From an uncultured Planctomycetota bacterium (GTDB lineage: Bacteria > Planctomycetota > Phycisphaerae > UBA1845 > UTPLA1), in assembly GCA_900696465.1 (NCBI GenBank), contig CAADGE010000035.1:124001-188000 (forward strand): DNA of 64,000 nt, given 5' to 3'. How positions within the stretch are numbered: position 1 is the first letter of the stretch; each line of letters begins with the position of its first letter. Of this stretch, positions 9,147-12,492 are shown in pieces. Under the pieces are notes generated by a model that saw only the letters and a list, made by a program, of their open reading frames with translations, searched no databases and had not been told where the DNA came from. A program made the position numbers and the translations under genes.

Positions 9147-9686
9147 GCGGCAGAGCGGGCCGTAAGCCGAATTCTGTCCCGCGAAGCCGTTGCCGGACAT
9201 CGTGGTGGCGACCATTTCTCTGGGCCGACGGTTGCCCGTCGGCTCAAGCACCCTACCCGCAACAGTGCGATCTTGCCCGACGTGCCGAAGCGCGTCGAGA
9301 AAAATCGCGCGAGACGAGCCGCCTCGCGAGGCGATCGACACCTGGGATCCCAGAGAATCCGGGCGCGCCGTCGCCTGCTCGTTGCTTACGTGGGCTTGCT
9401 GGCGGTGGGGTTTACCCTGCCACGCCTGTCACCAGACGCGCGGTGCGCTCTTACCGCACCTTTTCACCCTTACCGTCGTAGGGTGGGCATCGCCCACCAG
9501 GCCGCATCGGCAATCACATCGACCCTTTGGTGGGCCGTGCCCACCCTACGATGGCGGTGTCTTTTCTGTGGCACTCTCCCTGGCATCGCTGCCGGTGGCC
9601 GTTAGCCATCACCGTGCCCTGTCCAGTTCGGACTTTCCTCCCGAGAGAACCTGCTCCCGAGCGGCCGCCTGGCCCACTCTGCTGCC
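9147..9686 (-). ncRNA. rnpB: RNase P RNA (bacterial type A) with expanded P12
   Basis: Read on the minus strand, the universally conserved blocks of type A RNase P RNA appear in order. They are GAGGAAAGTCCG near the 5' end, GGTAAGGGTGAAAAGGTGCG, GGTAAGAGCGCACCGCGC, a GGCAGGGTAAACCCCACC block, GCGGGTAGGGTGCTTGAGCC, and ACAGAATTCGGCTTAC at the 3' end. The termini pair as a ~16-bp P1 helix (9671-9686 with 9147-9162, one mismatch and one G-U). The 5' end falls 6-7 bases after a perfect TATAAT. The RNA cleaves 5' leaders from pre-tRNAs. At about 540 nt it is long for the class, mainly because of a palindromic insert in the P12 position. Confidence 0.95.
9477..9550. repeat. Palindromic element inserted in the P12 stem of rnpB
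   Basis: Two 23-base arms (9477-9499 and 9528-9550) are inverted repeats matching at 21 of 23 positions, separated by 28 bases. Each arm is itself palindromic: GGTGGGC, three bases, GCCCACC. The RNA can therefore form one long hairpin or two short ones. It lies where P12 is expected, between the conserved ACCGCCATC and ACGGTAAGGGTG segments. The structure resembles REP-like dispersed palindromes more than an ordinary P12 helix. Confidence 0.8.
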
Positions 9687-9692
9687 GGGTTC

Positions 9693-9698
9693 ATTATA
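9693..9698 (-). promoter_or_regulatory. -10 element of the rnpB promoter
   Basis: A perfect TATAAT on the minus strand. The predicted first transcribed base, 6-7 bases on, coincides with the first base of the P1 helix of rnpB. The -35 region is weak (CGGCAA at a 17-base spacing). Confidence 0.7.
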
Positions 9699-9965
9699 CG
9701 GGCCGCCCTTCGACCTTGCCGAGAATCGCCGGATCGCCCGATCCGACGCCTGTGAAGCCACCTTGTAAACGGTTTGTAACAACGCAGCCCGATGATTCCA
9801 CGATTCCCAATGATGCCGCATGCGATACGGTTTACAGGACGCCCCGCTCGGCGGTTCTCTTGGCCCTCTCCAAGCGGTCCGGCTATATTGGAGGTTGCAG
9901 AATCAACCAATTGAATCGATTGACCGACATCGTCGTTCACAACCGCTGAGCCGGGAGTCTGAGAC

Positions 9966-11981: not shown

Positions 11982-12492
11982 CTGCACCCCGTCCGGTCGC
12001 GCTGCGGACGACCCTTCATTGCTTGCTTATGGCTGAATCGCCACGACACGGCAGGGGCCGCCGGTCCCGCCTTTGATCATGATCAACAGTGTAAGTGTGA
12101 TGGCGCCCTTCGGCGCAGCATGGCCGTAGTCGCCAGGATCACCAGGCGCGGATGTTCGCCCTGAAAAACCAAGTAAAACCTTACGGTGTCTTTCCCGCAC
12201 AGTTTCGATTACCGGACGCATGGCAAGCTCCTGCCAGAAGCGCGATGACGTCCGGGAAGGTGCAAACCGAAGGACCTTTCTCGCAGGCCCCGCACGCGAC
12301 ATAAATACAACGTCCGACTGCCTTTATTTCGACGTTTTGACTTTTCGATGTTTTGATGTTTCCGATCGGTTGCGTTGACAGGACTCCGGGTCGTATTATC
12401 ATGTAGGGTTCGCTATCCCCGGTATCGGCAGGGATGTCTTCACGCCGCAGGTCGGTGCCGGTTAGCTGTCAATGAGCAAAGGGCGCATTGCC
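11982..12492. other. Intergenic region, no confident gene
   Basis: About 510 bases. Short minus-strand open frames (12027-12302 and 12181-12402) contain Cys/Gly-rich peptides, but they overlap each other, lack family similarity that I recognise and do not look like real genes. A T-rich stretch at 12328-12360 carries short imperfect direct repeats. A plausible plus-strand promoter lies at 12375-12402. Confidence 0.4.
12375..12402 (+). promoter_or_regulatory. Candidate sigma-70 promoter for the secreted protein gene
   Basis: TTGACA (12375-12380), a 16-base spacer, and TATCAT (12397-12402). It lies about 90 bases before the start at 12493 and points towards it. Confidence 0.5.

Follow-up and report, generated by a model that had tools for sequence, protein, structure and literature searches.

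A REPIN is a pair of REP sequences in inverted orientation that has been duplicated as a unit, and repetitive sequences are reportedly to be found in the RNase P RNA gene of cyanobacteria (to go by the title of a 1997 paper by Vioque). The single repeats most relevant for present purposes are the GTAG REPs, in which, according to Di Nocera et al. (2013, PMC3733652), GTAG stands at one end of a short stem (6–9 bp in most of them) with a short loop; in their account such repeats also form dimers with the GTAG ends outside, most of them 20–100 bp apart, planctomycetes are among the hosts, and cases of REPs lying inside protein genes are reported. REPINs are mobilised by a cognate RAYT transposase that is flanked by the same REP. 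RAYTs figure in the abstract of that paper, which also mentions the palindromic elements of Rickettsia, i.e. palindromic repeats carried in functional genes; the term "RNase P" has no occurrences in its main text. As to the RNA itself, helix P12 is described as being without universally conserved nucleotides and as sometimes dispensable (PMC2858038, citing Vioque 1997).

The locus described here lies in a window of 64,000 nucleotides (the whole stretch of DNA that was analysed) belonging to a draft genome, G000, of 48 contigs and 4.14 Mb, which is 96.8% complete. The window contains an rnpB gene whose match spans the full RF00010 covariance model (Table 1; the gathering score is 100), and in which the entire outer part of P12 is made up of a head-to-head pair of REPs. 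An earlier note on this DNA had placed a palindromic element in P12, and in this it was correct: the class A RNase P match runs from 9680 to 9148 with the insert inside P12, alignment confirms that two 23-base arms (9477–9499 and 9528–9550) agree at 21 of 23 positions and are 28 bases apart, and each arm is, as claimed, itself a palindrome, GGTGGGC-3-GCCCACC (9482–9498 and 9529–9545), these being the sole two mismatch-free copies in the window. A repeat finder extends the arms to 9473–9499 and 9528–9554 (27 nt, 89% complementary). The basal P12 stem ACCGCC/GGTAAGG is kept, and is separated by at most 2 bases from each 23-base arm. The note had further put the RNA at about 540 nt; by the covariance match it is 533 nt long.

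Just one RF00010 match was obtained in G000, which makes this the sole rnpB detected in the genome. A search with PF08745 (PIN_5), which we take to be the Pfam family covering the protein-only HARP, gave no matches in the ten genomes searched, G000 included (a control matched in 4 of 14). Thus, within the reach of the RF00010 and PF08745 searches of a draft that is 96.8% complete, the rnpB with the insert is the only RNase P found in G000. A separate observation on the same gene is that a terminator-like hairpin with a run of T lies inside it on the minus strand (window 9308–9328, in the P15–17 region), where shuffles lead one to expect 0.9 such sites.

Table 1 Features of the rnpB locus, in window coordinates.
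Feature	Position	Strand	Basis or remark
rnpB, class A RNase P RNA	9148..9680	-	cmscan RF00010, 259.2 bits, E 2.3e-83, model positions 1-367
Basal P12, 5' side, ACCGCC	9553..9558	-	Sequence; predicted to pair with the 3' side
Basal P12, 3' side, GGTAAGG	9468..9474	-	Sequence; predicted fold
Inverted GTAG REP pair with GTAG ends outside (head-to-head dimer, REPIN-like), distal P12	9477..9550		Repeat and pattern searches
REP unit GTAGGGTGGGCATCGCCCACC	9478..9498	+	G000:C35:133478-133498:+, 0 mismatches
REP unit GTAGGGTGGGCACGGCCCACC	9529..9549	-	G000:C35:133529-133549:-, 0 mismatches
Spacer between the arms	9500..9527		Unlike the spacers of the other G000 REP pairs and of G069
Promoter-like site TCGGCA-18-TATAAT, just upstream of rnpB	9693..9722	-	Consensus match only, 10/12

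When set against the GTAG REPs as they are described in PMC3733652, the element shows the same tag and short loop, with a stem that in G000 is of 7 bp (both arms carry GTAG together with GGTGGGC-3-GCCCACC), dispersed copies, and dimers with the GTAG ends outside (the rnpB pair and four more); it is unlike them in that its host gene is a structural RNA. The dispersal, which the earlier note had supposed, is clear: allowing Y at one position and up to one mismatch, the REP pattern occurs at 25 places in G000 (none for the reversed control), two of them within rnpB and 23 elsewhere. The unit GTAGGGTGGGC-3-GCCCACC, searched with up to 3 mismatches, gave 49 genome matches against 4 for the reversed control, palindromic sites being liable in this count to register on both strands. 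The copies occur as single units, in two runs of one direction, and in four head-to-head pairs besides that of rnpB. Three of these four have related spacers, which that of the rnpB pair does not resemble (nor does it resemble the fourth), and the 82-nt rnpB element finds an end-to-end match at rnpB alone. None of the 12 other REP-bearing loci (L085–L096) has an Rfam match; a tRNA-Thr in L094 lies about 580 bases away from the REP of that locus.

The two runs deserve a word of their own, being unlike the inverted pairs seen elsewhere: one (L085, G000:C6:19214-19366) has five REP units in one direction with a 33-base period, and the other (L086, G000:C22:70142-70300) has four units, again in one direction, with a period of 46 bases. 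Elsewhere in the window, at 12327–12362, there is a GAAACGTC-type octamer repeat (TTTCGACGTTTTGACG), a sort of repeat with which P12 is filled elsewhere in the order; AAACGYCGAAACGYC has 11 exact matches in G000.

In common with REPINs, the rnpB element consists of two inverted REPs with a spacer, and its host probably encodes a RAYT, judging by a candidate at G000:C29:190-882 that matches PF01797 with 62.4 bits and NF047646 with 78.1 bits, just under the cut-off of 80. The spacer differs from that of the other four pairs, and a scan of 1.8 kb around the RAYT (the contig starts about 190 bases upstream of it) brought up no GTAG hairpin of the form sought. A scan for GTAG-like hairpins beside the three Y1_Tnp matches of G000 gave one GC-rich site, in L159, which is not GTAG. 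The Rickettsia palindromic elements, likened here by their description in PMC3733652 only, share with the present case that palindromic repeats are carried in functional genes, but the genes in the cases given there are protein genes. The repeats of Vioque (1997), known to us by title, do lie inside an RNase P RNA gene, but are short tandem repeats in another phylum; it is the octamer-type P12s discussed below (GAAACGTC and GTGGGAAC) that resemble the cyanobacterial rnpB repeats in kind, and the GTAG REP pair does not.

The earlier note had proposed that P12 be compared among close relatives, and two other genomes of the genus (G001 and G002) prove to have P12s of 42 and 76 nt, neither with a REP; the anchors of this same-genus comparison start a few bases earlier than those of the survey below, so that lengths differ by about 4. 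On an rnpB tree built without outer P12, G000 groups with G001 and G002 (93/82, not starred). Five families are represented by more than one row, and every one of them occupies one side of a branch, though details are unsure, 26 of the 96 inner branches being starred. Most simply, the REP pair entered the rnpB of G000 recently, as measured by the age of the genus; that it was gained before the genus divided and later lost is a possible alternative. The outer P12 of the relatives is too divergent for an empty site or a target duplication to be read at base resolution. The arm is not unique to rnpB, and a long P12 of this kind is not common to the relatives, these being the two signs by which the note would have recognised ordinary growth of the helix, and the entry of a dispersed palindrome into a tolerated site of rnpB is accordingly supported.

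A second case comes from another family of the order, where the P12 of G069 contains this REP pair too, but around a spacer that is unrelated (the local score between the G069 and G000 spacers was reached by 329 of 500 shuffles). Since the spacer is unrelated and the tree requires 2 changes for the GTAG REP, this looks like an independent insertion. The corresponding minima are at least 25 changes between long and short P12 and at least 9 for the GAAACGTC type; all these counts are minima on one tree and do not distinguish gain from loss.

Across the order, RF00010 was found, with stricter filters, in 99 of 114 genomes, and in these 99 rnpB genes the length of P12 (counted from ACCGCC and ending before GGTAAGG, so that basal letters are included) ranges from 10 to 349 nt with a median of 37, exceeding the median by more than 30 nt in 35. 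Other segments are nearly constant, with standard deviations of 2.2 for P8–10 (n = 99) and 0.2 for P13–14 (n = 98). Conclusions about segment lengths rest on these two and P12, the values for P15–17 and P19 being approximate, since the anchors went unrecognised in 11 and 26 of the 99 genes respectively and several P15–17 values enter the flanks. Many of the long P12s have short motifs in inverted arms. By motif, the GTAG REP pair occurs in P12 of G000 and G069 only, among the 99, while the GAAACGTC octamer is present in ten genomes (with G049 and G085 added by eye). Three genomes have GTGGGAAC and G030 has AAGGTGTCAGGAACC; CTAGARA is present in G008 and G110 (with one match also in the short P12 of G068), and G098 and G102 share a GTAG repeat of the GTCCGC type. 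That many relatives have dispersed repeats of other kinds in this slot goes beyond anything in the earlier note. Two wider searches may be mentioned here. A scan for ACCGCC together with the exact REP core returned two loci, which were rejected as REPs near unrelated ACCGCC with no Rfam match; its reach is limited, in that it would miss G069 (where one arm has GGTGGGT) and that the G000 records perhaps lie outside it. An rnpB query against phage sequences gave partial matches only, in 5 records.

Dispersal of the P12 repeat within its own host was tested in 18 of the 35 genomes with a long P12, and in 13 of these (G000, G069, G031, G049, G055, G025, G050, G030, G076, G077, G082, G103 and G109) the repeat family is found at no fewer than five further places in the genome, four unrelated families being involved among the tested hosts. 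G069, for instance, has 161 REP copies, two of them within rnpB. The P12 of G031, used as a query, has at least 37 matches in G031 (two being itself), at least 48 in G049 and at least 12 in G055, and none in G056, whose own P12 was not the query. Queries with the whole gene provide an internal control, as the matches outside rnpB are confined, to within a base, to P12: in G030, where P12 is 132–264 of the query, all of the at least 51 non-self matches fall within 153–249, and in G025 and G050 (P12 at 117–195) all those outside rnpB, among the matches listed, fall within 116–196. Dispersal is weak in G085 and G108 (one and two other places), the octamer pattern search found no other places in G084 or G089, and for the P12 of G070 there were no other copies among the best 40 of 58 candidates. 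It must be remembered that the octamer search uses the common octamer rather than the exact P12 of each host, and can therefore over-call or under-call; its reversed control gave 0 in every case except G076, where it gave 2. Octamer copies in the 12 hosts exceed those in 16 comparators by a Mann-Whitney test with p = 0.0045, uncorrected for shared ancestry, the comparators being of one family with P12s of 10–52 nt and G000, although searched, standing outside the test.

A genome may, on the other hand, carry a repeat family and not have it in P12. Of 14 genomes searched for the REP, 13 contain it, among them G014 (53 copies) and G032 (26 copies), yet P12 in these two is without it; similarly, the comparators G079, G086 and G052 have 18, 16 and 7 octamer copies and P12s of just 20–52 nt.

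The reading preferred here, and held with a good deal of confidence, is that a REP pair, likely moved by a RAYT, landed in the tolerant, peripheral P12 of the sole rnpB detected in G000, and that the same filter would account for what is seen in the order. The pair would have moved into P12 probably by means of a RAYT-type transposase or some similar process; being self-pairing, it would close the helix and leave the neighbouring substrate-binding junction (J11/12–J12/11) in place. With the helix closed and the junction intact, the ribozyme is proposed to survive the insert; one that fell in the conserved core would not have persisted. The pair would then be retained as P12 is peripheral and accepts a self-pairing insert, and through the same filter P12 would come, across the order, to hold again and again unrelated palindromic repeats of the host's own genome.

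The folding, as predicted on isolated segments, is in keeping with this reading. For G000 the 97-nt segment has a z of -7.4, none of 200 dinucleotide shuffles being as good, and its predicted fold is a single hairpin of -64.6 kcal/mol in which the basal stem is followed by one run of 14 pairs and one of 8. The REP pair may therefore form a structural arm of the RNase P RNA, as the earlier note had suggested, in so far as predicted folding can speak to this. Of the 35 long P12s, all but G002 and G036 have a z < -3 when compared with mononucleotide shuffles, and in 30 at least half of the outer arms are predicted to pair with one another. All 35 are predicted to have a closed base, of at least 2 basal pairs, a result that partly follows from the method, as the anchors were the basal letters themselves.

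Tolerance would be enough to explain the pattern seen in P12, with some bias of insertion towards the hairpin being possible. A stronger proposal, that P12 is a preferred landing site, the enzyme targeting hairpins or single-stranded DNA so that insertion is itself biased, seems rather improbable. It is certainly the case that several unrelated families are found at one spot, their repeats often starting a few bases from the ACCGCC/GGTAAGG stem, but tolerance alone, with core inserts being lost, predicts just the same, and genomes rich in a repeat that their P12 lacks (G014 and G032 for the REP, G079 and G086 for the octamer) are awkward for a site that attracts insertions. Moreover P19 has also been hit: in the rnpB of G070 (L132) it contains two inverted copies of a different GTAG repeat (GTAGGGTCCGC...), which is dispersed, with at least 8 matches on 5 contigs, and for this reason P12 is the main site observed and not the sole one. 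Two further rnpB genes have repeats outside P12. In G082 (L142), whose P12 holds GAAACG repeats, the P15–17 region contains an inverted GAATGCAGAATGC-type tandem repeat, while in G049 (L083) the P18–19 region contains an GTAGGGTGCATCTTGATGCACC hairpin that is GTAG-like by eye and that the motif expression did not match. The most far-reaching version of the preferred reading, which can be put forward only tentatively, would make P12 a standing dock for mobile palindromes throughout the order, many lineages having independently rebuilt the arm from their own repeats, possibly helped by hairpin-favouring insertion, with the gene as a record of repeat activity.

Alternatively, selection may have favoured a long P12 for some role in protein docking, RNA stability or localisation, the repeats being a convenient source; this is distinctly unlikely. 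What speaks for it is that the predicted folds of 33 of the 35 are far better than those of shuffled sequence. Yet both length and sequence differ within the one genus of G000, G001 and G002, and a P12 segment that goes down to 10 nt, basal letters included, argues against a common function.

Less likely still is ordinary growth of the helix in place, by slippage and compensatory change, with the likeness to a REP a coincidence. P12 does vary in length across the order, some long P12s are without dispersed copies as far as was found (G070, and by pattern G084 and G089), and G002, of the same genus, has a long P12 without a REP, all of which would fit. Such growth would not, however, be expected to place two copies of a 21-base tagged REP unit in P12 when 23 more are spread through the genome, or to give G069 the same units at the same spot around an unrelated spacer; for G000 and G069 the genome-wide copies already speak against it. 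Finally, an artefact of assembly or binning is hardly to be credited, for although G000 is a draft of 48 contigs, its rnpB is internal to a contig of 358,775 bases, and long P12s are present in one-contig assemblies too (G076 and G089).

Repeats in cyanobacterial rnpB and REPs in open reading frames are precedents, the latter as described in PMC3733652, whereas REP pairs in RNase P RNA appear to be new: neither these nor repeated colonisation of P12 across an order is reported among the matches listed in a literature search (titles and openings of abstracts), with an earlier account possible in Vioque (1997) or in an IJSEM paper that deals with the RNase P RNA of planctomycetes. For the expansion segments of essential RNAs the raw material is usually unknown; here it is the host's own dispersed repeats, in several lineages, so that the clutter of the genome seems to supply an essential RNA with material for building. 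The set of long P12s offers a natural series on how an RNA enzyme tolerates new arms, and a P12 filled with repeats is a marker of past REP movement. There is also a practical side, in that covariance models and size filters may miss expanded genes; 15 of 114 genomes are without an RF00010 match under the stricter filters. In these 15 the rnpB may be absent, truncated or too expanded, and some of them are more than 95% complete (G041, G059 and G051). At the other extreme, G048:C1 has two RF00010 matches, each of 389 nt and scoring 313.8 and 304.5 bits, a possible duplication of rnpB.
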